DNA of 45,469 nucleotides from an uncultured Gammaproteobacteria bacterium. GTDB taxonomy: Bacteria > Pseudomonadota > Gammaproteobacteria > CAKMZV01. The stretch covers positions 1 through 45,469 of the forward strand of contig CAKMZV010000001.1 of the NCBI GenBank assembly GCA_929200535.1. Reading direction: 5' to 3'. The notes beneath the pieces were generated by a model that was not told the origin of the DNA, made no database searches, and was given only the letters and a program-made list of their open reading frames with translations. Positions 28,372-43,512 of the stretch are shown here, in pieces (the first letter of the stretch is position 1; each line of letters starts with the position of its first letter). The position numbers and the translations under genes were made by a program.

Positions 28372-29388
28372 TTATCGAATCAACTTAAGATTCCCCTTAA
28401 CCTGCTGAATATCTGCACAACCTAACAAAAACAACCCAAGTCTAAACTCCTGCTGTAACTGCTGAATTTTCTCCACAGTTTGCTCCACCCCCTGCTTAGC
28501 ACACTCCAACAAAGGCGCTGCCATCGCACACAATTCAGCACCAAGAACAAGGCTTTTTACCATATCAACGCCATTGCGTAATCCACCACTCGCCAACACC
28601 TTAAACTCCGGATACTGAGCAACTAAGCGAATCACCTCTGGAGTCGGAATACCCCAATCCTGAAATACAATCCCCAAATCATCATCCAAACCCTTTGACT
28701 GGCGCCGATGATTCTCCAAACGGCTCCACGAAGTCCCCCCACGTCCGGCAACATCAATCCAACGAATTCCTGCCTGCTTCAACAACATCAAATCTGGCAA
28801 TGAAAAACCGCACCCTACCTCCTTCGCAATCACCGGCACATCCACCGCCTCAACCAACGCCTGCACCTTATCAGCCAATGAAGAAAAATCCGTATCCCCC
28901 TCTGGTTGAATTACCTCCTGTAAAGGATTAAAATGCAAATAAATTGCATCCGCCTCAAGCATAGAAATCATCTCCCCCACCTGCTCCAACTGCAAACCAT
29001 AATTCAACTGCACAGCCCCAATATTCGCAATCAAAGGCACCGTAGGAGCATACTTTCGCAACTCAAAACTCTCCACTGCCTGACTATCAGACAAAGCAAT
29101 ACGCTGAGAGCCCACCCCCATTGCCACCTGACACTCCTCCGCTGCCAAAGATAAAACCCGATTCAACTCAATCAACTGCTTCGTATTCCCCCCCGTCATC
29201 GAAGAAATCACAAAAGGGAACGCCAAACGCTTACCAAGAAAAAAACAACTCGTATCCACCTGCTGCAAAGAAATCTCTGGCAACGCACGATGAACCAACT
29301 CAATCCCATCAAAATAATTCCCAGACCGCTCAATCTGCTTATCCGTGACAAACAACTCGATATGCTCTGCCTTACGCTTATTACTCAT
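28372..29388 (-). CDS. fni: Type II isopentenyl-diphosphate delta-isomerase
   Basis: FMN- and NADPH-dependent enzyme of 338 residues that interconverts IPP and DMAPP. Family blocks: FPFVISSMTGG, MGVGSQRIAL, ANIGAVQL, HFNPLQE, KEVGCGF, DVAGRGGTSW and LASGGLRNGVDMVKSL. The start overlaps the mvaA stop by 4 bases (ATGA), so the two are translationally coupled as one mevalonate-route operon. The type I Idi is unrelated in sequence. Confidence 0.95.
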   Translation of the reverse strand: MSNKRKAEHIELFVTDKQIERSGNYFDGIELVHRALPEISLQQVDTSCFFLGKRLAFPFVISSMTGGNTKQLIELNRVLSLAAEECQVAMGVGSQRIALSDSQAVESFELRKYAPTVPLIANIGAVQLNYGLQLEQVGEMISMLEADAIYLHFNPLQEVIQPEGDTDFSSLADKVQALVEAVDVPVIAKEVGCGFSLPDLMLLKQAGIRWIDVAGRGGTSWSRLENHRRQSKGLDDDLGIVFQDWGIPTPEVIRLVAQYPEFKVLASGGLRNGVDMVKSLVLGAELCAMAAPLLECAKQGVEQTVEKIQQLQQEFRLGLFLLGCADIQQVKGNLKLIR

Positions 29389-30443
29389 CGCTCAAAACGT
29401 ATATGTGCATCCACCAACTCCCCCTCATTGGTCAAAGCTGCCAACAAAGAAAGTTCCCCACACGCCACAGCCACCGCAGCCAAACAACTCAAACGCTTAG
29501 AATTATCACCCACCTCCTGCTGCTGCAAACACCCCAATCGCTCAAGAGCCTTCTGAGCCTCCGGCAAATGCTTACCATTACCCACCGAACCGACAATAAT
29601 ATTCGGAATAGAAACTGAAAAATACAAATCCTCGCCATTCTCCCCGCGCCTCTCAAGATGCGTAATCCCCTGTGAACCCTCCACCACATTCGCCCCATCC
29701 TGCCCAGTCGCAAGATAAAAAGCCAACAACATATTCGCAAAATGTGCATTCGCCGAACGCACACTCCCAGCAAGCACCGAACCCATCAAATTCTTCTGAA
29801 TATGCAAATTATGCAACCGCTCCGCACTGCTATGTAAAAAACGCCTTAACACCTTATCACTAATCAAACAATCAGCAATCACATGCTTTCCCCGACCCAA
29901 AATACCATTCACAGCCGAAACCTTCTTATCCACACAATAATTCGCCGAAAGCGAACCATAACGTAAATCAGCGACATTATTCAAAATCCAACTCTGAATC
30001 ACCTGAGCCCCAAGCGTTGCCATATTATGCCCACTCGCATCACCGGTCTTAAACGCCAACCGCAAATACAACAAATTCCCGACAAACTCCGGCGTTATCC
30101 CCTCTAAAATCGTAAACCGACTCACCTTCTCCAACTCACCAACAAGCACCGCCTTAGACTCAACAATCCTCCCCCAAGCTGTCTGAATCTGAGCCATACT
30201 ATCTGCAGAAAACACAATTGAACGAGTCATACACTCACTCACCACCTGAACATTCAACCCACCACAAGCATTAAACACCAAAGACCCACGGCGTACCGAA
30301 GGCCACATAGGCGTCTCATAAGTCGCCAAAGGCAAAAATACCTCCTCCGACATCTCAGCATTTGGCAACAAACCATTCACCAAAGCAGGCCCAATCCACT
30401 GCGTTGGTACAGATGTAAACTCAACAGTTCTATTTTTTGACAT
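29385..30443 (-). CDS. mvaA: Hydroxymethylglutaryl-CoA reductase
   Basis: Makes mevalonate from HMG-CoA in isoprenoid synthesis. In the 352-residue protein, catalytic landmarks are Glu43 in ATYETPMWPSVRRG, the TGDASGHNM block (133-141), DKKVSAVNG with the catalytic Lys (172-180), GQDGANVVEGS with Asp249, and His347 in DAHIRFER near the C-terminus. MvaA proteins of class II are longer (about 430), and this compact form resembles those found in some mevalonate-pathway Gammaproteobacteria. Cofactor preference cannot be read confidently. Its first 250-odd bases and upstream region are duplicated in decayed form at 32190-32445. Confidence 0.9.
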   Translation of the reverse strand: MSKNRTVEFTSVPTQWIGPALVNGLLPNAEMSEEVFLPLATYETPMWPSVRRGSLVFNACGGLNVQVVSECMTRSIVFSADSMAQIQTAWGRIVESKAVLVGELEKVSRFTILEGITPEFVGNLLYLRLAFKTGDASGHNMATLGAQVIQSWILNNVADLRYGSLSANYCVDKKVSAVNGILGRGKHVIADCLISDKVLRRFLHSSAERLHNLHIQKNLMGSVLAGSVRSANAHFANMLLAFYLATGQDGANVVEGSQGITHLERRGENGEDLYFSVSIPNIIVGSVGNGKHLPEAQKALERLGCLQQQEVGDNSKRLSCLAAVAVACGELSLLAALTNEGELVDAHIRFER

Positions 30444-30681: not shown

Positions 30682-32157
30682 TTATTGCATAATACGCTTC
30701 TTTTTGCGTAACCCTTTTTTAGATAAACGATACTTTTGATTTTTACTCGTTGGCTTCTCTGGTATTGTTCTTTCAACCAAACCTGCCTGAAGAGCTGGTT
30801 CTAAATATAGTTTTTGAAAACTCTTTTTGTCTTTTAAAGACAACTTTGCCATCAATTCCTTACTGGACATTTCCTCAGTTAATACAGTGATTAAAATCAC
30901 CGTAGCATCAATATCCTTAGGAGTATCTTTGGGGGTATCTTGGGGGGTATCTTGGGGGGTATCTTGGGGGGTATCTTGGGGGGTATCTTGAGGGGTATCT
31001 TGGGGGGTATCTTGAGGGGTATCTTTGGGGGGGGCTTGAGGGGTGTCTTGGGGGGTATAAAAATGATTATAAAGCGTGACTTCAACCCCTCCGTTTTTCT
31101 CTATGATTATAGGTTCACAAAGTCCTGCATCTTTACAAGCCTTAAACACCTTAAGTGTTCCTCTACCCCAAGTGTCGATATAACCAGCTTTGAAACATGC
31201 CTCTGCTAAAACAGGATTAAGTGGTATAGATTGATGCTCTTTTTTTAAATCTTCAATCGTCAACCCCGTTGGCAATACACCCTGATTCCAAATGCTACAC
31301 CTCTCATCAAAAACACGAATTTGTATCGTGGTACCATTATATTTTTTATGCACAAAAGCATTTAACAAAATTTCTCGTAATGCAGCTAAGGGATATTCGT
31401 AATTCTCTCTTCTATGCATACCTTCAAATTCAATAGGACGAACCAAAAATTTGTAGTTCAATATCTTTAGCACTTCTTCTAACAAAAAGATGATATTACC
31501 TTCTAAAAATTCCTGAAACTTTATATCCTCGCTGTCTTTTCCAAAACGCCCTATCATCACCTTACAGTTTGGAATGAAATAATTAGGGTCTTTTCCAAAA
31601 AGAATGATTCCAGCTCGTTTAATTTTGCCATTCTTTGCTAATCGTAATTTCTCTAAAATCTCACAATCGCTTAATCCACTTATATCCGGCAACCTACCCT
31701 TTTGTTGGCTATCATTGATGAACTTTTTGATACTATTAGAATCAATATCCTGAATAGAAGCTTCTTCAACAATAAGTTCATCCCAAGTTGTTCCAGATTT
31801 TTGAAGTAAAAACTCCGATAATTCAACGCCATTTAATTCATGAGTAGCACTACCAGAACGCACATAATATTTACCACGATAAGAAATAGGATTGGCATAG
31901 GATTTAACATCGATTTCAATAAATTCGCTTCCGTTATCACCATGTAAATTAACGGCACAAACAATACCCATACAGCTTTTGATTTTTGAAGGAATATCTT
32001 TCAAAAGCGATGCAAAATTAGAAAGAGGAACTACATTCCCCTTATTATCTTTACCAATAAATAATTGCCCTCCATCTGTATTGGCAAAGGCACAAACCCA
32101 CTTAAGGTACTCATCCTTCCAAATTTGTTTCCACTCAATATTTTGGGATTCGTTCAT
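30682..32157 (-). CDS. AlbA_2 (Schlafen-type)/HATPase_c_4/wHTH regulator with 12-bp repeat linker
   Basis: A 491-residue protein of the COG2865 type. Residues 1-120 form an AlbA_2 domain (ESQNIEWKQIWKDEYLKWVC, FANTDGGQLFIGKD, YYVRSGSATHEL). A GHKL-type ATPase-like domain includes LREILLNAFVHKKY and TWGRGTLKVFKACK (roughly 250-360). A linker of 12 four-residue units (mostly TPQD) follows, and a C-terminal winged-helix-like region (SSKELMAKLSLKDKKSF) ends the protein. Such proteins are predicted transcription regulators and often lie beside type I restriction genes; the ligand is unknown. It is flanked on both sides by hsdR and mvaA remnants. Confidence 0.85.
   Translation of the reverse strand: MNESQNIEWKQIWKDEYLKWVCAFANTDGGQLFIGKDNKGNVVPLSNFASLLKDIPSKIKSCMGIVCAVNLHGDNGSEFIEIDVKSYANPISYRGKYYVRSGSATHELNGVELSEFLLQKSGTTWDELIVEEASIQDIDSNSIKKFINDSQQKGRLPDISGLSDCEILEKLRLAKNGKIKRAGIILFGKDPNYFIPNCKVMIGRFGKDSEDIKFQEFLEGNIIFLLEEVLKILNYKFLVRPIEFEGMHRRENYEYPLAALREILLNAFVHKKYNGTTIQIRVFDERCSIWNQGVLPTGLTIEDLKKEHQSIPLNPVLAEACFKAGYIDTWGRGTLKVFKACKDAGLCEPIIIEKNGGVEVTLYNHFYTPQDTPQAPPKDTPQDTPQDTPQDTPQDTPQDTPQDTPQDTPKDTPKDIDATVILITVLTEEMSSKELMAKLSLKDKKSFQKLYLEPALQAGLVERTIPEKPTSKNQKYRLSKKGLRKKKRIMQ
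30913..31056 (-). repeat. 12-bp tandem repeat encoding a (TPQD)12 linker
   Basis: Twelve in-frame 12-bp units, mostly ATCTTGGGGGGT on the plus strand, encode TPQD with TPKD, TPQA and PPKD variants. Since 12 is divisible by 3, copy-number change lengthens or shortens the linker without shifting the frame. The units join the ATPase-like domain to the winged helix. Confidence 0.93.
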
Positions 32158-32287: not shown

Positions 32288-32422
32288 TAATTGTATAAAT
32301 TTAAAAAAGTATCCGCATTAAACCACATTTAACACAGAAAAAAAGAATTTAGTACAGGCTCGGAAAAAACAGCCCCTATGAAAATTTTATCTTAAAAGCA
32401 CAACAAACCCGAAAAAGCAACT

Positions 32423-32680
32423 TTATCCTGCTCTTTTTTGATATAGAATCAATATCCTTAGGGGTATCTTGAGGGGTATCTTGTAGGGTATCTTGTAGGG
32501 TATCTTGTAGGGTATCTTGTAGGGTATCTTGTAGGGTATCTTGTAGGGTATAAAAATGATTATAAAGCGTGACTTCAACCCCTCCATTTTTCTCTATGAT
32601 TGTAGGCTCACAAAGTCCTTCATCTTCACAAACCTTAAACACCTTGCTCTACCCCAAGTATCGATATAACCAGCTTTGAG
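32423..32680 (-). pseudogene. Remnant: 3' part of an AlbA_2/HATPase regulator fused to an hsdR tail
   Basis: From 32680 downward the minus strand matches the C-terminal ATPase end of the 30682-32157 gene (FKVCEDEGLCEPTIIEKNG) and then a repeat linker of eight units at about 32455-32550, six of them TLQD instead of TPQD. At about 32446 it jumps into the last codons of hsdR, stopping at 32423-32425. The N-terminal two-thirds and the winged helix are gone, so it is not a functional gene. Confidence 0.75.
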
Positions 32681-32683
32681 TTG

Positions 32684-32824
32684 GGGCACTCGTCTATTTT
32701 GACTAATTAAACGCCCTTGAATAATAGAAAATTCTAACCACAAACGACTACCTGCCACCTTCCCTCAAACAGCCTTACGCAAAGAAAGCTCTATTAAATC
32801 GTGTTTGGTTTGGGCTTCGTTCAT
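32684..32824 (-). pseudogene. Remnant of the hsdR 5' end
   Basis: The minus strand from the ATG at 32822-32824 matches the first 45 or so codons of hsdR at 39471 (MNEAQTKHDLIE, LRKA, LWLEF.IIQGRLI), with frame damage. Its ATG overlaps the TGA of the alternative winged-helix frame of the gene upstream (ATGA), the same coupling seen between the RloC-like gene and the intact hsdR. Confidence 0.8.
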
Positions 32825-32888
32825 ATTTTTATGATTTGCCAATAACCCCCTACATTATCACCTTTGCGTTCTATGTATCCAGCTTCTT

Positions 32889-34061
32889 TTAACTTAGCTT
32901 GGTGGTTTTCAATAGTTCTTGATGTAACGTCCAATTCTTGAGCAATTTGTTTTGCCGAGTATTCTGGGTGTTCATTGATAATTTTAAATGTAGCTTCCAC
33001 TGGGATTCCGAATGTGTTCCGAATATGCTCCGAAGCCGTTCCGAAATCATTCCGAAATCATTCCGAAATCGTTCCGAAACGTCCTTTTTGCTAATCGCCT
33101 TAAATAATGTCACTTCAATACCACCATCTTTTTCTAAAATTTTAGGCTCTGGAAGACCAGCTTCTTTACAAGCTTTGAAAATTTTCAATGTGCCACGACC
33201 CCAAGTATCAATATAACCTGCTTTAAAGCAAGCTTCTGCTAAAACTGGATTTGGCGATTTAGAATGGTGTTCTCTTTTTAAACTCTCTACGGTCATTCCT
33301 AAAGGTAAGGTTCCCTCATTCCAAATAGATAATTTGTTATCGAATATGCGTATTTGTATAGCGGCTCCCATGTACTTTTTATGGACTAACGCATTTAATA
33401 ACATCTCTCTCAGTGCAGCTACAGGATATTCTTCTCCTTCTACTCGATGCATGCCTTCGAAACCTACAGGCCGGGTTAAAAACTGATTGGGGTCTTTACC
33501 GAAAAGGATGATACCTGCTCGTTTGATTTTGCCATTATGTGATAATCTTAATTTGTCTAGTATCTCCGTATTTGTTAGCCCATCTACATTGGGAAAACGT
33601 CCGCTGTTTGTACTATCTGAGATAAATTGTTGGATGGAGACTTCATTTATACCTTCCATACTGACATCTTCGATCGTTAGTGCATCCCAAGTTGTTCCAG
33701 ATTTTTGAAGTAAAAACTCCGATAATTCAACGCCATTTAATTCATGAGTAGCACTACCAGAACGAACATAATATTTGCCACGGTAAGAAATAGCGTGGGC
33801 ATAGGGTTTAATCTCCACTTCAATAAAATGGCAACCAGCATCATCGCGTAAATACACCGCACAAACAATACCCAAAGCATGCTTGATTTTACTCGGAATA
33901 TCTTCTAACAGTTTTTGATAATTATCGAGATGAACCACCTCGCCATTATCTTTTTTACCAATAAATAACGACCCACCTGTAGAATTAGCAAACGCACAGA
34001 CCCCTTTGAGATACTCATCTCTCCAAGTTTGCTTCCATTCTATGTGTTGGGTTTCGTTCAT
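32889..34061 (-). CDS. AlbA_2/HATPase_c_4 regulator, frame-shifted at an 11-bp repeat
   Basis: A 390-residue paralogue of the 30682-32157 protein. The AlbA_2 domain (TQHIEWKQTWRDEYLKGVC, STGGSLFIGKKD) and ATPase-like domain (LREMLLNALVHKKY, TWGRGTLKIFKACK) are present, but about 45 residues after KDPN are deleted in frame. The linker is a 7-unit 11-bp repeat. After it the current frame gives an unrelated 40-residue tail. Another frame gives a good winged helix (VEATFKIINEHPEYSAKQIA, TSRTIENHQAKLKEAGYI, GGYWQI) that stops at 32821-32823. Losing one repeat unit would join the two. It starts 6 bases after the upstream ATPase gene, in the same operon. Confidence 0.82.
   Translation of the reverse strand: MNETQHIEWKQTWRDEYLKGVCAFANSTGGSLFIGKKDNGEVVHLDNYQKLLEDIPSKIKHALGIVCAVYLRDDAGCHFIEVEIKPYAHAISYRGKYYVRSGSATHELNGVELSEFLLQKSGTTWDALTIEDVSMEGINEVSIQQFISDSTNSGRFPNVDGLTNTEILDKLRLSHNGKIKRAGIILFGKDPNQFLTRPVGFEGMHRVEGEEYPVAALREMLLNALVHKKYMGAAIQIRIFDNKLSIWNEGTLPLGMTVESLKREHHSKSPNPVLAEACFKAGYIDTWGRGTLKIFKACKEAGLPEPKILEKDGGIEVTLFKAISKKDVSERFRNDFGMISERLRSIFGTHSESQWKLHLKLSMNTQNTRQNKLLKNWTLHQELLKTTKLS
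33005..33081 (-). repeat. 11-bp tandem repeat, 7 units, likely phase-variable
   Basis: Seven uninterrupted 11-bp units (ATTCCGAAATC and variants on the plus strand) lie inside the coding region. Eleven is not divisible by 3, so each unit gained or lost shifts the frame. Three units encode an 11-residue period (SERFRNDFG-type). With 7 units the downstream winged helix is out of frame; with 6 it would be in frame. Confidence 0.93.
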
Positions 34062-34067
34062 TAGGGA

Positions 34068-36641
34068 TTATTTTTTATACTTTCTAATTTTTGTTCGTAT
34101 ATTATTATACCTATTAATTTCTTCTTTAAGGTTTGTCGGCTCTGGCTTTTTATATCCATACTTATCGCTATGGCTGTGTCCTTCCATGTATCGACAACAT
34201 TGAGCAAAACTATCAAGAAGTTCATTTATTAAATTTTCATCAAAATATACACTCCTAAGACTATCAATACTCACTCGTTCATTGAATCTTTGAACAACAT
34301 TTTTAAATAAATCATTAATTACTAAAACTTCATAACAAGTACGCAATGCAGTGAAGCCAGTCCTTATCAAACCTTCTCTTTCTTGTGGTGGGCATTCTTC
34401 TTTAATTGCTTTAGAATAATGTTTTTGTGCTTCATCAGAATTACGATATATGCGTTCATAACTGGGAGAGTTTTTTAAAAAAACGTATCCTGAACTTCCA
34501 TCTCGATGTTCAATCCAATGACACTCATTCAATATACCCATGTTTTCAGCATAATTTATAAGACTATAAATAAAAACTAGATCATGAGTAAAAATGATAA
34601 CTTGCTTCTCTTGAGATATAGAAACAAGACGCTCTGCAATTACACTTTTTCTTTTTTCATCAAGGGAATTAACAGGATCATCAAAAATAATACCTTTGTT
34701 AATTGTGGTGATGTTGGTTTCTGCAATGAAATCAGCAAGAGCAATTACTTTTTGTTCCCCTTCACTTAAAATAGCAGAAGGGTCTTTGCCTTTAAGCAAA
34801 AGTTGCCGGTTAGATTGTGCATCAGAACTTTTTGCATCTATTTCAATTCCAAACTTTCCATTAAGTTTTTCACATTCGTTATTAAATGCATTAATATAGT
34901 CAGTATTGAAATATTCTTTTGATAAACGCTTTTCTGCATTGGTCGATGTAGTTTTGTAACTTTGCTTATTAAATTGATTAGCCTTATTTACCCAAATCAT
35001 GTTTTTATGTAGGTTTTCAATGTCTGTGTATCGGGCTTTTAATTTTTCTTTATGAGCTAAAAATGTCTTTTGTTTCAACAGTTCGCCAAGTTTTTTAGTT
35101 TGTTCATCTTCCTCATACGCTTTAATTTCGATATCAATAGCTTCGCTAATTAAGTCTAAAGAACTTAAATCTAACTGTATTTGACTTTGCTTAATATCCT
35201 TTTTGTCAATAATGTTTAAAATAAGGTTTTGTCTTAATATTTCTTGATTTTTAAGTTCATTCTTTAATTTTATTAAATTTTCTTCGTATTTGTCTTTTAG
35301 CCAAACGGTTAAATTATCTGTTTCCGAAAATTGATTAAAATTTAAATTTTCGTAATCCTCTTTATACTTAACTAGTTTTTCATTAGCTGTTTTTGCTTCT
35401 TTTTCAGCAATACTTTTAAGATATGCCCAATAATTACTTATTAGGTTTTTGGTAGTATCGTTATTGATGGCTTGTTGACACAACAAACAATTATCTTCAA
35501 GTTCAGGATATTCACTTTCGCTTTGAGTTGAAGCAAATTTTTCAGCAGCTTCAATGAATGTCTTCCATTCTGTAGAACCGACATTTTGAATTTTATCGGT
35601 TTTGAATTTCTCTACACCTTCTGTTTGTGCAATATCTTCTTTGGTTTTACAGTTGGTAATATCATCTCTTACAATATTTAACTTTGCCTGAGTAAACAAC
35701 GAGTTTAAATTCTCTAAAGTTTTTTTTCGAGCCTTGATTAGTTCTTTTATGTTTCGTAACTTTGTAAGTGTTTCTTGTTTTTGAGCTAAAGAAATTTTTA
35801 ACTTGTCATATTCTTTTTCTACTTTTACTTTCTCTATTTCATCTTGATTAGTATATGGTAAGTATGCTTTTAAATCTTCTAATTTAGAATTATGTGAAAG
35901 TTCAACTAGGAACGTTTTGATTTCAGACTCTCCTTGAAAAATATCATCATCTGCAAAAGGATTAGCAATATTTTTTGACCCAATATCATACTTGAGTTTG
36001 CTATTTAATTTCTCTAATACAATATTAAATTCATTAAACAACTGTAAACCAGCAGGACGAAAGCTAAAATCATTTCTTTCACTAAGATGTTTTTTTCCAA
36101 TATCTCCATCAAAAACAGCAAATTGACTAAAAATTCCATTCTCTTTATCATCAGGATATTTTAAGATAATTTTTCTTTCTTCTGATGAAAAATTGAAGGT
36201 CGCAGTAATGTCTTTATGTTCAGAATCAATATTAATATTTGGTAAAATTTTTTCTTTATCCTTGGAGTAAAAAATATTTTTCAATAGTCGTGTATAGCCA
36301 GACTTTCCAGCTCCATTTGATCCATATATAATGGTTAAATTAGGCGTTAATTCAATTTTTTGATTTTCAGCAAGAGCATTAACCCCTTCAACATTTGTTA
36401 GAGACTCAAATAAAAGATTTTGCTTATAGTCATCAGATACGGTTGGATTGTATGAAATAAAAAGTTCGTTTTTTTTCGTCTTTTCTTTAAGACTTAATTC
36501 TTCCAATAAGTAAGAATATATAATCTCAATTGTATTATCTGAGATTTTTCTCCCTGCTAAAATTTCAGCACATAAATATCTTGCCCAATATGGTTGATCT
36601 TTAGCAAATTCTTTAATTTCTTCTTCCAGAGTTTTATTCAT
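34068..36641 (-). CDS. RloC/PrrC-like AAA_13 family ATPase with zinc-hook CxxC (second copy)
   Basis: An 857-residue SMC/Rad50-like ATPase: Walker A GSNGAGKS at 107-114, a long coiled coil with CxxC (Cys385, Cys388), ABC signature LSEGEQ at 625-630, Walker B GIIFDDPV at 650-657, His switch THD at 685-687. The C-terminal region has Arg767 and Glu771 (R-x3-E) followed by His822/His824. RloC and PrrC anticodon nucleases use an Arg-x3-Glu plus His triad and are regulated by type I restriction enzymes; RloC also has a coiled-coil zinc hook. Whether this protein cuts tRNA is inference. It follows an hsdS fragment by 3 bases and precedes the frame-shifted AlbA_2 gene. Confidence 0.8.
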   Translation of the reverse strand: MNKTLEEEIKEFAKDQPYWARYLCAEILAGRKISDNTIEIIYSYLLEELSLKEKTKKNELFISYNPTVSDDYKQNLLFESLTNVEGVNALAENQKIELTPNLTIIYGSNGAGKSGYTRLLKNIFYSKDKEKILPNINIDSEHKDITATFNFSSEERKIILKYPDDKENGIFSQFAVFDGDIGKKHLSERNDFSFRPAGLQLFNEFNIVLEKLNSKLKYDIGSKNIANPFADDDIFQGESEIKTFLVELSHNSKLEDLKAYLPYTNQDEIEKVKVEKEYDKLKISLAQKQETLTKLRNIKELIKARKKTLENLNSLFTQAKLNIVRDDITNCKTKEDIAQTEGVEKFKTDKIQNVGSTEWKTFIEAAEKFASTQSESEYPELEDNCLLCQQAINNDTTKNLISNYWAYLKSIAEKEAKTANEKLVKYKEDYENLNFNQFSETDNLTVWLKDKYEENLIKLKNELKNQEILRQNLILNIIDKKDIKQSQIQLDLSSLDLISEAIDIEIKAYEEDEQTKKLGELLKQKTFLAHKEKLKARYTDIENLHKNMIWVNKANQFNKQSYKTTSTNAEKRLSKEYFNTDYINAFNNECEKLNGKFGIEIDAKSSDAQSNRQLLLKGKDPSAILSEGEQKVIALADFIAETNITTINKGIIFDDPVNSLDEKRKSVIAERLVSISQEKQVIIFTHDLVFIYSLINYAENMGILNECHWIEHRDGSSGYVFLKNSPSYERIYRNSDEAQKHYSKAIKEECPPQEREGLIRTGFTALRTCYEVLVINDLFKNVVQRFNERVSIDSLRSVYFDENLINELLDSFAQCCRYMEGHSHSDKYGYKKPEPTNLKEEINRYNNIRTKIRKYKK

Positions 36642-37014: not shown

Positions 37015-39471
37015 CTACCCTGCTCTTTTTTTATATAAATATTCTTGAAACTCAATAAAAGTCTCTCTAATTTTGTGTATTTCCCCCAATTCACTTTTAG
37101 CATCAACAATAGAGTTATATTTCAATTCTAACAAGCTGGGTAATTTACCTTCATCTAACTCCTGTACGCCATCTCTAACATACTGCTCCAAAACAAAATT
37201 TAAGAAATCTTGCAGTTGTGGACTATAATCCACAAACCAAATTTTTGCCTGTTCTGCCCGCTCCAATCGTGGGACTAAATCCCGATGATACGCCACATAA
37301 CTTAACACATCAAATAAATCACTATTTTCCCCATTAACAAGCTGCCTTAAATCTTCTAACTGAGCTGCCGTATAACCTTTATCCTCTAATTCTACGAGTA
37401 GTTTTTTTCTTGTATCTGGTTTACTCCATATTGCTCTCAGTTCCTCTTCACTATTAAAAAATGCGGGTAAATCCCCAAAAAATTGTTGGAGAAATTGAGT
37501 AGCAGAAATGGGGGGCCCTTCTGTACTCCAAAAAGTAGTTTTTGAAATAGCATCTATCTCCAAAGCTTTTCCATTGGATAATTGCACTTTTATCAATGAC
37601 GATGACTCCTTTTCACAAACACAAGGATCATTGCCACACTCATTACAGAGTTCAGATTCTACCTTTTCGCAAACACATTTTTTCTCCCCACAAATTTTAC
37701 ATACTGAATCGCCTCCCCCCACTATTGGTGATTCAGGAGCTTCTGGAGGTCCGTCCCATTCAGAATCTTGGAAATGCTCATGGGCTTTAGTAAAGTCGTA
37801 CACAGTGAAATAATCTTTACCATCAAATAAACGAGTCCCTCTTCCTATAATTTGTTTGAACTCCACCATAGACTCCACAGGACGCAATAACACAATATTT
37901 CTAATCTCAGGAGCATCCACCCCAGTGCTCAGTTTTTGAGAAGTGGTTAGTATAGTTGGGATGCTTTTTTCATTATCTTGGAAATCTCGTAAATGATTTT
38001 CTCCCATACTCCCATCATCTGCCGTTACTCGGTGGCAATAGTTACTATTCTTGCTGTTAGCAATTTGATTGATTAAATCACGAATAAGAGCCGCATGAAC
38101 TTGGGTAGCACAAAAAACCAAAGTTTTTTGATTCTGATTGATCAAGTCCATAAAATACTTGACACGATAGCGTTCTACCTGCTCAATAATAATTTTTCTA
38201 CCATAATCTCTATAAGTAAAAGTATCCCCAACTTCTGCCTCGCCTTGTATGATTTTATCATCAGAAGTGATGGTGTAATCATCATAGTTGGTTTGGATTT
38301 CTTTGACTCTAAAGGGGGAAAGAAAGCCATCATTGATGCCGTCTTTGAGGGCGTAAGTATAGACGGGCTCTCCAAAGTAATCATAAGTATCAGCATTGAC
38401 ATCGCGTTTTGGAGTCGCTGTTAACCCGAGCTGAACTGCTGGGGAGAAATGCTCCATGATTGCCCGCCAAGTGCTCTCATCCTTCGCTCCACCACGGTGG
38501 CACTCATCAATGATGATGAAATCAAAAAAGTCTGGTGGATATTGCCCAAAATTGAATGGGTGGGTTTGATAACTCTCGCTAGACTCCGCTACCAGAGGAA
38601 GTGCTTCTTCTATTTCCTCCTCTGTATGCTGAGCAGAAGTCATGAAGGTTTGAAAGATGGTGAAAAAAATGTTTCCATTCGTAGGAACTTTGCCTTTCTT
38701 TTTAATTTCCGATGGATTTATGCGAACTTTGATATTTTCATCGATAGCATCAAACGCATTAAAGGCATTAAAGGCCTGGTCAGCTAAGATATTTCTATCT
38801 GCTAAAAATAAAATCCTAGGTCGGCGTTTCCCATCTCGTTTCAAGTTCCATTTAGCATGAAAAAGTTTCCAAGCGATTTGAAAGGCAATATCCGTTTTCC
38901 CAGTACCTGTAGCTAAGGTAAGTAGGATTCTGTCTTTTTTCTCTGCGACAGCATCTAAAGTTTTCGCAATGGCATTTTCTTGATAATATCTTGGTTGCCA
39001 TGTGCCAGCTTTATCTTCAAATGGAATAGAAAAAAGTTCTTTTTTCCAATGAGCTATTTCTTTTTTATATTCTTGCTTAGGTGTTGGATAAGTCATTTGC
39101 CAAAGTTCATCAGGAGTAGGGAACTTAACTAGCTCTCCTTCTGTGCCTTCTTGCATATCCACTTCATAGATTTGCAAACCATTAGTAGCATAAGTAAAAC
39201 GAATATTAAGTCGTTGGGCATAATCTTTTGCTTGTCCTACACCATCAGTATAATATAAATTTCTTTTTTTAGCTTCAACAATACCAATCCTACGGTTTTT
39301 ATACTCTAGGATATAATCAGCAAATAAAGGCTTGGAGCGTTTATTACTTCCAATGAGTCGCCCTTGAGTAATTGGAAACTCTAATAATAAACGACTACTA
39401 GGGACTTTTCCCCAACCAGCCTTACGAAGAGCAGGTTCTATTAAATCGTGTTTTGTTTGGGCTTCGTTCAT
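37015..39471 (-). CDS. hsdR: Type I restriction endonuclease subunit R
   Basis: An 818-residue restriction and translocation subunit of the EcoEI-like type. The N-terminal PD-(D/E)XK nuclease has Asp52, Glu66 and Lys68 (FADYIL ... IVEAKK). SF2 helicase motifs follow: Walker A ATGTGKT at 187-193, DECH at 322-325, TATP at 351-354 and IGRGTRLFDG at 542-551. A cysteine-rich insert with two CX2CX4CXC motifs (591-619) sits between the helicase and the C-terminal domain that docks on the methylase. The start overlaps the stop of the upstream ATPase gene (ATGA). It appears intact. Confidence 0.95.
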   Translation of the reverse strand: MNEAQTKHDLIEPALRKAGWGKVPSSRLLLEFPITQGRLIGSNKRSKPLFADYILEYKNRRIGIVEAKKRNLYYTDGVGQAKDYAQRLNIRFTYATNGLQIYEVDMQEGTEGELVKFPTPDELWQMTYPTPKQEYKKEIAHWKKELFSIPFEDKAGTWQPRYYQENAIAKTLDAVAEKKDRILLTLATGTGKTDIAFQIAWKLFHAKWNLKRDGKRRPRILFLADRNILADQAFNAFNAFDAIDENIKVRINPSEIKKKGKVPTNGNIFFTIFQTFMTSAQHTEEEIEEALPLVAESSESYQTHPFNFGQYPPDFFDFIIIDECHRGGAKDESTWRAIMEHFSPAVQLGLTATPKRDVNADTYDYFGEPVYTYALKDGINDGFLSPFRVKEIQTNYDDYTITSDDKIIQGEAEVGDTFTYRDYGRKIIIEQVERYRVKYFMDLINQNQKTLVFCATQVHAALIRDLINQIANSKNSNYCHRVTADDGSMGENHLRDFQDNEKSIPTILTTSQKLSTGVDAPEIRNIVLLRPVESMVEFKQIIGRGTRLFDGKDYFTVYDFTKAHEHFQDSEWDGPPEAPESPIVGGGDSVCKICGEKKCVCEKVESELCNECGNDPCVCEKESSSLIKVQLSNGKALEIDAISKTTFWSTEGPPISATQFLQQFFGDLPAFFNSEEELRAIWSKPDTRKKLLVELEDKGYTAAQLEDLRQLVNGENSDLFDVLSYVAYHRDLVPRLERAEQAKIWFVDYSPQLQDFLNFVLEQYVRDGVQELDEGKLPSLLELKYNSIVDAKSELGEIHKIRETFIEFQEYLYKKRAG

Positions 39472-41873
39472 TGGATAGGGGTTATATTTATATTATTTAA
39501 AAAAGCTTTGTATTGTTCTGGATCTTTTTCTTCAATTTTTGTAATAATTAATTTTGCAACTGTAGACATTTCCGGAACTTCTATAATAGACTCTCCTCTT
39601 TCAAAAGTTCCACTTAAATGTGAATACTCATTATTTAATCTATCAATAAAAACTGTTGGGATATTTTCATCTCCAAAAAAAATCTTCATTTTATCGCATA
39701 GCTTTGTTGAATCTGGATATTTATAATAAAGATATAGTTCTAAAAATTTTCTTGCATTATTTCCAAAATTATAAAAAGTAGTGTAATTATTATCATCAAT
39801 ATTTTTGATTATCGAACACTTGTATATTTGACTGAATAAGTAGTTAAATTCAGAAATAGAATCTCTCAAATAATTTGGCATTATTTTAATAGAAGATTTA
39901 TTTTCATTTCTTTCGATTATTAAGTATTGATATAGTTTCTTTTCTTCTTTTTTCTTCTCATCATTATGGGCATTTAGTAATCTTTTCAGGTATTTCAAAA
40001 AATTTAAATTGTGAGTGGAAATAAATAATTGCTCAAAATCATCTCTTTCAGAGATTTGAGTATTAATTAATGTATAAATGAAAAAGATGTGATTACTGTC
40101 TAGGCTAGAAATAGGATCATCAATCCAAATAATCGGTTTTAGCCCTTTGGTTTTAGTATCTTGAAGCTTTGCCATAAAATAACAAAATGCGATTAAGCTA
40201 TTTTCGCCCTCACTTAAATGGTATGCTTTTTTGTTTTCTCTATGTATTTCGAATCTATATTGTTTGCTACCAGTATCTTCATTTTTAAACTCAATGGCTT
40301 CCAATGATAAAAATTTATGTCCAAAATAATTATTTAATAATTCATTTACCTTTTTAGCTCCAGCCTTCTCATCATTCAACTCTGTTTGTCGCTGTGAAAT
40401 ATCACTTAAAATGTTATTTATTTCGACTTGCTTATTGTCTTTTTTAGCCCTTTCTTTTTCTAGTTTGTCACTAAGTTTAAAGATATTATCTTCTTGATTG
40501 TCGTATTCTATTGTAGCTATAAAATCGCAAACCTCTCGCAACCTTAAATGCTCTTTTGCACTATTTTGGTCTTGACTTAAATTTTCTGTATATTTATTAG
40601 ATTTTATTCGTAATGTTTCTATTGCTTCTACTGCTGTATCAATCTGTGATTTTACATTATTAGGTGCTTCAAAAATTTGAGTATTTATAATATTGTCTTT
40701 TCTTTTTTCTAATTGTTGAATTAATGATTCAAGTGATTTCTGATACTCTTTAATACTATTATCAAATGCTTCTTTTACCCTGTTAAACTCATCATTATAT
40801 TTCGAATAGAAACTATCTTTTGTTACAATTTCTATTGACTCTAAAGAATTATTTTCATGTTTAATTTCAGTAATTAAGCCAGAGATTTCTGTTTCTAACT
40901 TTTTTGATTCTTCATCAAAGTGTCTATCTAATTCATCCCATCGTGATGCTTTTATTTCATTATCACAAAATGCACAAGTATTTAATTTATCCTTGTGTAA
41001 TTCCCGACCTTCTTTTACCCAGTTATTTAAAATGGCATTTTTAACTAAATTCTCGATTTTATTAGATTGAGAAATTGATTTTTCAACTAAACCTTTAGTT
41101 TGAGTGGAAAAGGATTCGAATGTTAAACTAAGTTTAGGTAAATCTTGAATATGAGCTTTAGCTCCTTCTCTTATTAAAGCTTTTAACTTTTCTTTTTCTT
41201 CATTAGTTATAGGGTTAAATTCATCTTTTTTGACTTTTGTTATATCATCTCTTAATTTGTTTATATTATAATTTTGATCTCCAAACTTACCAGAATTATA
41301 TTTAATTCCATTGGGTTGCCCTATAGCTTTTTCTCGAAGCTGTGAATCTAAATCCTTTTTAGCAGTCTGATGTGCGCATTGAGCACTATTGAAATTACTT
41401 TGAAAATCTCTTAACTCTTTATACAAAGCAGTTTCTTCATTCTCTTTATTAACTCCTAATTTATCTTTTAAATCTTGTATTTTTTTTTCAATTACATTAT
41501 TGTCTTCACCTAGTATAGCAAAGGGGTGAATATTTTCATCTGAATCTATAATAAACTTTAAATTATCTTTAATAAAATCTTCATTGAAAACTCTGATAAT
41601 TTTATTGTGAGAGGAAAAATTATTTTGAGTAATATTATCTTGACCAACTATAGAAATAGAACATTCAGGATTTTCGTACTTATCAGAAAGTCTTCCTGTT
41701 TCCATAGCTCTAACAATTCTTGAAAGAGTTGTTTTTCCAGAGTAATTTCTACCGTAAAGAATATTTGTCTTTTTCAATTCTAAAGGTTTTGATTCATTAT
41801 CAATTACTTCTTTATCCCAATCAAAATCACTAAAAACAGCAAGATTATTAATATATAAAAATTTTTTTATCAT
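39468..41873 (-). CDS. RloC/PrrC-like AAA_13 family ATPase with zinc-hook CxxC (between hsdS and hsdR)
   Basis: An 801-residue ATPase encoded inside the hsd operon, as prrC and rloC are. Walker A is GRNYSGKT at 41-48 in a PrrC-like context (NILYGRNYSGKTTLSRI). A coiled coil carries CAFC (Cys300, Cys303). The signature is LSEGEN at 553-558, and Walker B with D-loop is IIWIDDPISSLD at 581-592. The C-terminal domain holds Arg708 and Glu712 (NARKFLEL) and His752 (NEYSHL), a candidate anticodon-nuclease triad; the spacing Arg-x3-Glu is that of PrrC (Arg320, Glu324, His356). Such enzymes are thought to be held inactive by the restriction complex and released on phage attack. It is distinct from the copy at 34068-36641. 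Confidence 0.85.
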   Translation of the reverse strand: MIKKFLYINNLAVFSDFDWDKEVIDNESKPLELKKTNILYGRNYSGKTTLSRIVRAMETGRLSDKYENPECSISIVGQDNITQNNFSSHNKIIRVFNEDFIKDNLKFIIDSDENIHPFAILGEDNNVIEKKIQDLKDKLGVNKENEETALYKELRDFQSNFNSAQCAHQTAKKDLDSQLREKAIGQPNGIKYNSGKFGDQNYNINKLRDDITKVKKDEFNPITNEEKEKLKALIREGAKAHIQDLPKLSLTFESFSTQTKGLVEKSISQSNKIENLVKNAILNNWVKEGRELHKDKLNTCAFCDNEIKASRWDELDRHFDEESKKLETEISGLITEIKHENNSLESIEIVTKDSFYSKYNDEFNRVKEAFDNSIKEYQKSLESLIQQLEKRKDNIINTQIFEAPNNVKSQIDTAVEAIETLRIKSNKYTENLSQDQNSAKEHLRLREVCDFIATIEYDNQEDNIFKLSDKLEKERAKKDNKQVEINNILSDISQRQTELNDEKAGAKKVNELLNNYFGHKFLSLEAIEFKNEDTGSKQYRFEIHRENKKAYHLSEGENSLIAFCYFMAKLQDTKTKGLKPIIWIDDPISSLDSNHIFFIYTLINTQISERDDFEQLFISTHNLNFLKYLKRLLNAHNDEKKKEEKKLYQYLIIERNENKSSIKIMPNYLRDSISEFNYLFSQIYKCSIIKNIDDNNYTTFYNFGNNARKFLELYLYYKYPDSTKLCDKMKIFFGDENIPTVFIDRLNNEYSHLSGTFERGESIIEVPEMSTVAKLIITKIEEKDPEQYKAFLNNINITPIQ

Positions 41874-41885
41874 AATCTATTCTGT

Positions 41886-43016
41886 TTATTCTCCGTTAAA
41901 GGCTTTTTGTAAAATGGATTTTTTCAGTTCTTCTAAGTTATTTAATTTAACACGATAGCTATTAATTATTGATTTTGTTTTAGAATCCAGATCAACCATA
42001 ATTCCAACTAATTTTTTTTGAGTACTTTTATCGGGAAATGATATTTTTATCTTTCTCAAGTCATCATTATATAGCCTTGAAATTGTTGCTCCTTTTGAAG
42101 GATTCCAATCACAAACACCATAGAACTGATATAGATAATTATTTAAGAGTTGCTCTTCATTATTTGCTATCCAAACAATATTTGAATCTTGGAAGTAAGC
42201 TGGTTCACCATCATATATCACTCTCCTTCCAATAGTTCCCGATGCTGATATAAGAATATCACCTTCATTAGGAAAGGAATATTTACTTTTAAAATCGTTG
42301 TATATTTTTTCAGGTATATAGGCATTAGCTACTTTACCAAATGTCCCAATTTTATAAAAAGGGATTCCCTCTTCTGTATTTGTTTGTTGCTTCAATATTC
42401 TTTTACACATTGACACCTTTCCCACTTCCCCTAAAGTCTTCTCTTCCCAGCCGTTGCCTTTTTGGCTAAAGATTTGATTGAGTTTGGATTGAAAAAGCTC
42501 CTTAGCGTTTTGGATGTTTTTTTCAAGATTGGCTTTGGCTTGGTCGATGGCGGCAAAGGCTTTATCGAGTATCGCTACAATTTGTTTTTGTTCGACAAGG
42601 GGTGGGATGGGGATTGGAATTTTTTTCATATTACCTTGATTCAATTTTGGAACTGTCATCCCAGTAACAAAGGGCATCAAATTTTGAAAATTTAAATTAT
42701 ATATGAGCCAAAAATCATCAAGAAAATTTCTATCCGGTCTGATTACATGGGCATGATTATTAACCCATGTTTTTCCTTCAACTAGGAATGCACTATTATC
42801 ACCAGATTCCCACTTAGCACCATCCTCACCTAATAGAACAAGAGGTTCATTAAAAATATAATCTTGAACATAGCTTAATATACCAGTTGCACCGTAATAT
42901 GGTATTTCTCCTTCAATTCTGTCCTTTTTAGTGATTGGTTTTCTTTTGTTATCAAGAACCTCACAAACCTCTCCCAACTTTTTTATTTCCCAACCTTCTT
43001 TCATATCATTCATCAT
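41886..43016 (-). CDS. hsdS: Type I restriction-modification specificity subunit S
   Basis: A 376-residue specificity subunit with two target-recognition domains (residues about 1-150 and 190-330), each followed by a conserved helical spacer: LVEQKQIVAILDKAFAAIDQ in the middle and LNNLEELKKSILQKAFNGE at the end. The TRDs read the two halves of the bipartite DNA target. Start codons ATGATG overlap the end of the upstream gene. The two TRDs differ, consistent with an asymmetric target. Length is near normal (about 400). Confidence 0.93.
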   Translation of the reverse strand: MMNDMKEGWEIKKLGEVCEVLDNKRKPITKKDRIEGEIPYYGATGILSYVQDYIFNEPLVLLGEDGAKWESGDNSAFLVEGKTWVNNHAHVIRPDRNFLDDFWLIYNLNFQNLMPFVTGMTVPKLNQGNMKKIPIPIPPLVEQKQIVAILDKAFAAIDQAKANLEKNIQNAKELFQSKLNQIFSQKGNGWEEKTLGEVGKVSMCKRILKQQTNTEEGIPFYKIGTFGKVANAYIPEKIYNDFKSKYSFPNEGDILISASGTIGRRVIYDGEPAYFQDSNIVWIANNEEQLLNNYLYQFYGVCDWNPSKGATISRLYNDDLRKIKISFPDKSTQKKLVGIMVDLDSKTKSIINSYRVKLNNLEELKKSILQKAFNGE

Positions 43017-43512
43017 TTTCTATTTTCCAATACCCACCTTTATCACCCCCTATGCGTTTGATTGCCTTTTTTTGTTTTAGGTTTTCAATGTGCTTTTGTA
43101 TAGCGGAGGGATTGATTTCTAATTGTTTGGACAACTCTTCACGGCTTATTTTTGGGTTTGTTTGAAGCAACTTTAAGACTTGTTCTTGTTTCTTTGTTAG
43201 CTCGATTTGAGTATTTCTCTGACCACCTTTCTGACCACCTGCTTGGCTACCTTTCTGACCACCTGCTTGGCCACCTTTCTGACCACCTTTTATAGGCAGG
43301 GTAATTTTTAAGAAATTATCAGAAAATGCAAAGCATGATTGTGGGTAATATTTTAGGATTCGGGGTAATCCAGAGCCTAATTGTTCTACAAATTTTAAAT
43401 CTTTGAAGATACGAATAATTTCTTTATTTCTTGGTATGGAAAAACCTACAGCTACTTGTTCAAAAGAATCATTGAGTTCTCTTTTAAATTCTATTTTTTC
43501 AGATTCTCTCAT
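43006..43512 (-). CDS. Shortened AlbA_2/HATPase_c_4 wHTH regulator with GGQK repeat linker
   Basis: A 168-residue protein. The first 15 residues look like an AlbA_2 start (SEKIEFKRELND), then the sequence jumps to the end of the ATPase-like domain (RNKEIIRIFKDLKFVEQLGSGLPRILKYYP). A repeat linker (residues about 74-98, GGQKGGQA type) and a winged helix (KISREELSKQLEINPSAIQK, IKRIGGDKGGYWKI) follow. It is therefore an internally deleted relative of the genes at 30682 and 32889, but its frame is open. Overlaps hsdM by 4 bases (ATGA) and the start of hsdS, so it is translated within the hsd operon and may regulate it. Confidence 0.78.
   Translation of the reverse strand: MRESEKIEFKRELNDSFEQVAVGFSIPRNKEIIRIFKDLKFVEQLGSGLPRILKYYPQSCFAFSDNFLKITLPIKGGQKGGQAGGQKGSQAGGQKGGQRNTQIELTKKQEQVLKLLQTNPKISREELSKQLEINPSAIQKHIENLKQKKAIKRIGGDKGGYWKIENDE
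43219..43290 (-). repeat. 12-bp tandem repeat encoding the GGQK/GGQA linker
   Basis: Six in-frame 12-bp units, alternating CTGACCACCTTT and TTGGCCACCTTT/CTGACCACCTGC types on the plus strand. Copy change keeps the frame. It occupies the same position between ATPase-like domain and winged helix as the repeats at 30913-31056 and 33005-33081. Confidence 0.9.

Follow-up and report, generated by a model that had tools for sequence, protein, structure and literature searches.

The protein encoded by the gene described in this work is one which we take to be COG2865-like and type I restriction-associated, with an SLFN_AlbA_2 domain, a HATPase_c_4 domain and a C-terminal winged helix (wHTH). The closest described systems carry short tandem repeats. 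The hsdM gene of Haemophilus influenzae is a phase-variable restriction gene with a non-triplet repeat, in this case a pentanucleotide (PMC2651432). The HsdS proteins of EcoR124I/II have an in-frame 12-bp tandem repeat (TAEL) which alters the specificity spacing and does not act as an on/off switch (PMC3874165). The Rpn proteins, encoded by a defence gene, have variable dodecamer repeats which separate an HTH-like C-terminal domain from the effector domain (PMC10327210). Literature searches for AlbA_2 in combination with phase variation, for 11-bp repeats in restriction genes and for restriction loci with RecG-like regulators yielded none, and no description of linker arrays of two unit-length classes in this regulator family was found in the literature searched.

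The window, i.e. the whole stretch of 45,469 nucleotides that was analysed, carries a type I restriction locus, with hsdM, hsdS and hsdR in one cluster (HsdM at 43509, HsdS at 41886, and HsdR, of the EcoAI family, at 37015). The gene under study is part of this locus, as are its relatives in L054 and L058 of theirs. Its present open reading frame (32889..34061, minus strand) encodes 390 aa with an SLFN_AlbA_2 domain (residues 3-108, 55.2 bits) followed, as in its relatives, by a HATPase_c_4 domain (residues 232-319, 78.4 bits), both above the Pfam cut-off. The protein then continues into an off-frame tail and ends before the wHTH, which is found in the next frame. While the family has its C-terminal winged helix in frame, here it is one base out of frame, and the window copy also lacks 43 residues conserved in its relatives.

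Within this gene, on the minus strand, the motif TTCGGA is found seven times at exact 11-bp spacing. The seven 11-bp units (33003..33079, minus strand) lie at 33079-33069, 33068-33058, 33057-33047, 33046-33036, 33035-33025, 33024-33014 and 33013-33003, with the TTCGGA core invariant in 7/7 and the remaining five positions variable. The initial annotation had the number of units and their spacing right and placed the array two bases off, at 33005-33081. At lag 11 the array matches itself at 54/66 positions in its best 66-base stretch, and none of 1000 shuffles gave more than 35. Perfect period 11 extends over about 30 nt or about 2.7 units, the rest being degenerate.

The present frame is open through the whole array and stops at 32891-32889 with a tail unrelated to the family. 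The wHTH frame, which is offset from it by one base, has a TGA at 33060-33058, the end of unit 2, and from unit 3 onwards (32821..33057, minus strand) no further stop before the TGA at 32823-32821. With the seven units of this genome, translation therefore exits the native frame within the array and reaches the stop at 32889 without the wHTH. Since 7x11 = 77 = 2 mod 3, the ATPase and wHTH frames would be joined if the array became, on balance, one unit shorter or two units longer; however, the fusion would not be open in every case of a lost unit, because unit 2 contains a TGA when read in the wHTH frame. The arithmetic by which deletion of one unit or addition of two was proposed to fuse the frames is thus correct, while the absence of any stop between them is not general, as this TGA closes some of the fusions.

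Codon usage, domain matches and homology all point to the wHTH frame as the one in which the gene natively ends, this being the native C-terminus in the family. After the array this frame scores 0.29 per codon, the median of the genes in the window being 0.28, and the present frame scores -0.02 per codon, which is within the off-frame range. Stop-free off-frame stretches of 78 codons were found in 17 out of 3314 cases. The Pfam model HTH_11 matches the wHTH frame with 32.1 bits (cut-off 25). A wHTH-like C-terminus, with or without a repeat linker, is present in all twelve aligned relatives (12/12), and none of them (0/12) ends like the present frame. Comparison of the wHTH of the window to two other wHTH sequences showed 41 and 37 third-position changes and 17 and 17 second-position changes; third positions are the most changed, a pattern as in coding DNA. 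The unrelated tail ending at 32889 and the clean winged helix in the other frame with its stop at 32821-32823, both described in the initial annotation, are confirmed by these data, and relatives have the fused C-terminus that it named for comparison.

The nearest relative with a TTCGGA array is found in a Cytophagales draft genome (L010; 51% identical). It has six units, the ATPase frame passes through the array into the wHTH in the register that this number predicts, and the end of the gene shares an ATGA with the beginning of an intact hsdR. The order of the locus is hsdM, hsdS, an AbiE-like pair, the AlbA_2/HATPase gene and hsdR. This gene carries an internal TAA within its AlbA_2 domain. 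In L025 the array reads in frame into a wHTH which is then interrupted by a TGA, and L026 is a fragment made up of linker and wHTH, an orphan ORF that begins with an ATG of its own and holds array and wHTH. With a stop in two of these, a fragment in the third, and a deletion plus a frame break in the window, every known carrier of the TTCGGA unit is therefore damaged. Some of these lesions may be errors of draft genomes; alternatively, such damage may be normal in these genes, which would speak against reading the window copy as a relic. The TTCGGA repeat was present in the window only among 369 gammaproteobacterial genomes and, with one mismatch allowed, in the L010 genome only among 223 genomes of Cytophagales. 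No close match was found in the E. coli and plasmid DNA searched.

Tandem arrays are not restricted to the TTCGGA carriers. In a sample of 89 distinct HATPase_c_4 genes, mostly of Bacteroidia, 37 have a tandem array between the ATPase and the wHTH, 28 in the 12-bp class (periods of 12, 24 and 36) and nine in the 11-bp class (11 and 33), a count which leaves aside two arrays at gene ends. Elsewhere in those loci only three arrays with a period of 11 or 12 were found in 156 kb. Unit sequences in the 11-bp class are of several kinds, unrelated to each other. All the other 11-bp linker arrays found (6/6) read into the wHTH in frame, and at least six out of seven would be in frame with a probability of about 0.007 under random phases. 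The joined state is therefore usual, and it is the window that departs from it. The TTCGGA pattern led to L025, and protein or domain searches led to the remaining genes with 11-bp arrays, so that frame state was not a criterion of selection.

The window itself contains paralogues, all on the minus strand and all with 12-bp arrays. A full-length paralogue of 491 aa (30682..32157) has AlbA_2, HATPase_c_4, a 12-bp TPQD array and a Fic-like_C wHTH in frame. A further AlbA_2/HATPase copy is represented by a fragment (32376..32660) that carries a 12-bp TLQD array and has a broken end. A miniature paralogue between hsdM and hsdS (43006..43512) is composed of a short N-terminus, the end of the HATPase, a GGQ 12/24-bp array and a wHTH, and is apparently a protein of the family with a large in-frame internal deletion. 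These 12-bp arrays resemble the repeat of EcoR124I/II HsdS, where a 12-bp unit adjusts a linker within a type I restriction locus (PMC3874165). They also resemble the Rpn genes in having 12-bp repeats between effector and HTH-like C-terminal domains, but belong to another protein family (PMC10327210).

Other genes of the region are mentioned for completeness. Inside the hsd locus two large ATPases (34068-36641 and 39468-41873) match PDC-S06, a candidate defence family of PADLOC; the one at 39468-41873 is AAA_13 and RloC/PrrC-like. Adjoining the locus are genes which, named by eye from the sequence, are HMG-CoA reductase-like and type 2 IPP isomerase-like (28372-30443); the pair look like part of a mevalonate pathway, which would be unusual if the genome is gammaproteobacterial. 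At 170-300 there is an array of the heptamer AACCATT (18.7 copies). Contigs C40, C46 and C48 of the same genome have it as well, and a Bacteroidota genome (G500, L059) has many copies next to an AlbA_2/type I restriction locus.

The window copy is damaged apart from its frame. Forty-three residues between FGKDPN and FLTRP, present in 12/12 aligned relatives including the paralogue at 30682-32157, are absent from it, and this gap is unique among the aligned sequences. The alignment with the twelve relatives places the in-frame 43-codon deletion approximately at 33475..33489 (minus strand), after residue 192, within FGKDPNQFLTRP. The loss preserves the frame, as if the product were still under selection, which counts against reading the gene as a relic. 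At the other end the stop of the wHTH overlaps by ATGA (32821..32824, minus strand) the start of an hsdR-like remnant (32702..32824, minus strand), which has about 81% DNA identity to the start of the intact hsdR (39359-39471). The overlap that the full form was expected to make with an old hsdR start is therefore real, but this hsdR copy stops after 19 codons. The intact hsdR of the locus (37015-39471, EcoAI family) is overlapped by an upstream gene other than the wHTH gene. ATGA overlaps are thus present at the start of both the intact hsdR (39468-39471) and the remnant (32821-32824) with different upstream genes, as if modules had been exchanged exactly at the hsdR start.

The reading we prefer, with a probability of about 0.58, is that of a one-unit frame break, reversible in principle, in an eroding paralogue of a rearranged restriction island. 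A gene of the AlbA_2/HATPase_c_4/wHTH family beside type I restriction genes would have its linker between ATPase and wHTH encoded by an 11-bp tandem array and its frame kept at six units, and we infer that a single gain of one unit, which could in principle be lost again, disrupted the frame of a duplicate that was already eroding. The two partial copies of the family elsewhere in the locus are in line with this. As neither frame has been closed and a gene-like codon pattern persists in the wHTH, the break would be recent or reversible, which again counts against a relic.

The initial annotation had gone further and proposed that the gene is phase-variable and at present off. In such a contingency switch 11-bp slippage would join and separate the wHTH, together with coupled translation where hsdR follows by ATGA, and the genome would have been caught in the off state. 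Several features are those of a contingency gene: an in-ORF tandem repeat of seven 11-bp units, not a multiple of three and placed at the junction of ATPase and wHTH, and a unit count which toggles two open frames, one of them native, as indicated by the frames open over units 3-7, by codon statistics and by the relative L010 in frame with six units. Non-triplet repeats do phase-vary restriction genes, and the window shares with hsdM-type genes a non-triplet unit in a gene of a restriction locus whose number sets the frame; it differs from them in the long impure 11-bp unit with only about 2.7 perfect copies and in a gene which is otherwise damaged and itself not an hsd gene (PMC2651432). A contingency gene would be otherwise intact, while this one lacks 43 residues found in 12/12 relatives, and given this loss and the relic state of hsdR a switch would have little to act on. 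With the other 11-bp linker arrays in frame in 6/6 cases as well, we regard a switch in this genome as possible but doubtful. What stands of the proposal is that the unit count decides the joining of ATPase and wHTH; a working, maintained switch in the window copy is unsupported. Intact relatives could be phase-variable at a low rate through the same array geometry.

A trivial explanation of the frame break would be an assembly error in the unit count, for which the draft state of the genome (50 contigs) might speak. Ordinary reads are longer than the array (77 bp), and differences among the units allow these to be placed; such an error is very improbable. Even less credible is programmed -1 frameshifting at T TTA AAA (32988), which would join the frames without a change in unit number. 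The heptamer is in the right phase within the overlap of the two open frames, but such a heptamer occurs in 262/681 ordinary coding windows of equal length, the downstream fold is unremarkable (z -1.4) and no such heptamer site was seen in the L010 sequence.

As in Rpn systems, where variable 12-bp repeats precede a separately translated C-terminal domain (PMC10327210), an internal start might also yield the wHTH as a small protein of its own. The truncated ATPase would then act with it in trans. A GTG is present in the wHTH frame at about 33000-32998, and the orphan ORF of L026 with its own ATG and the miniature gene at 43006-43512 are in line with such a product. The truncated ATPase is the one without the 43 residues, however, and we consider this arrangement improbable.

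A further possibility is that the array is primarily a DNA element, e.g. binding sites for the wHTH of the encoded protein, located in the linker or across the stop codon, with the effect on the frame being secondary. In the window units the TTCGGA core has 0 changes in 42 sites versus 14/35 at the other unit positions, and synonymous core sites alone give a chance of about 0.002, a value to be taken with care, since the units are derived from each other. Among 46 non-redundant genes similarity of the units tracks similarity of the wHTH on the coding strand (rho 0.38, 0/2000 permutations), with the correlation being absent on the non-coding strand. It is also seen between 11-bp and 12-bp arrays, whose frames differ (0/5000); in this latter test wHTH groups were set after the sequences had been seen, while the coding-strand rho test is done without such groups. 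Several relatives have arrays of 9-12 bp that lie across the stop codon or behind it; among arrays at the stop taken by themselves, however, the correlation is not significant (884/5000). Common descent could account for much of the correlation, shared ancestry and linker peptides could yield the same pattern, and repeat units are not independent of each other. An 11-bp TTCGGA iteron as a general element of phages was considered and rejected, as the pattern is no commoner in phage contigs than its reversed control (29 stretches versus 25; 21 at 12-bp and 12 at 10-bp spacing). Taken as a whole, a primary DNA element is unlikely for the window array, and a DNA-level role of the arrays in general is a lead.

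The relatives with arrays at the stop codon (L051, L184, L185, L047, L177, L011 and L222) have a different wHTH type and, at their 3' ends, tandem units that span the stop or follow it directly, in several with 11-9-11-11 spacing; the units include ATTGCACA, ATTGGCTC and ATAACGCC. These look like DNA-site arrays rather than linkers. A more elaborate and still less probable proposal is that 11- and 12-bp arrays, be it in the coding linker between ATPase and wHTH or across the stop, would be recognition arrays for the gene's own winged helix, with the unit sequence co-evolving with the wHTH. A change in the number of 11-bp sites would then also sever the DNA-binding domain, the operator doubling as a frame switch.

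If intact relatives of this gene do switch, restriction would be turned up or down via the wHTH and by a repeat unit which, at 11 bp, is unusually long, and where hsdR follows by ATGA coupled translation would also be affected. The presence of linker arrays in 37/89 genes of a common family of defence-locus regulators makes linker length, reading frame and DNA sites candidate roles for these repeats.
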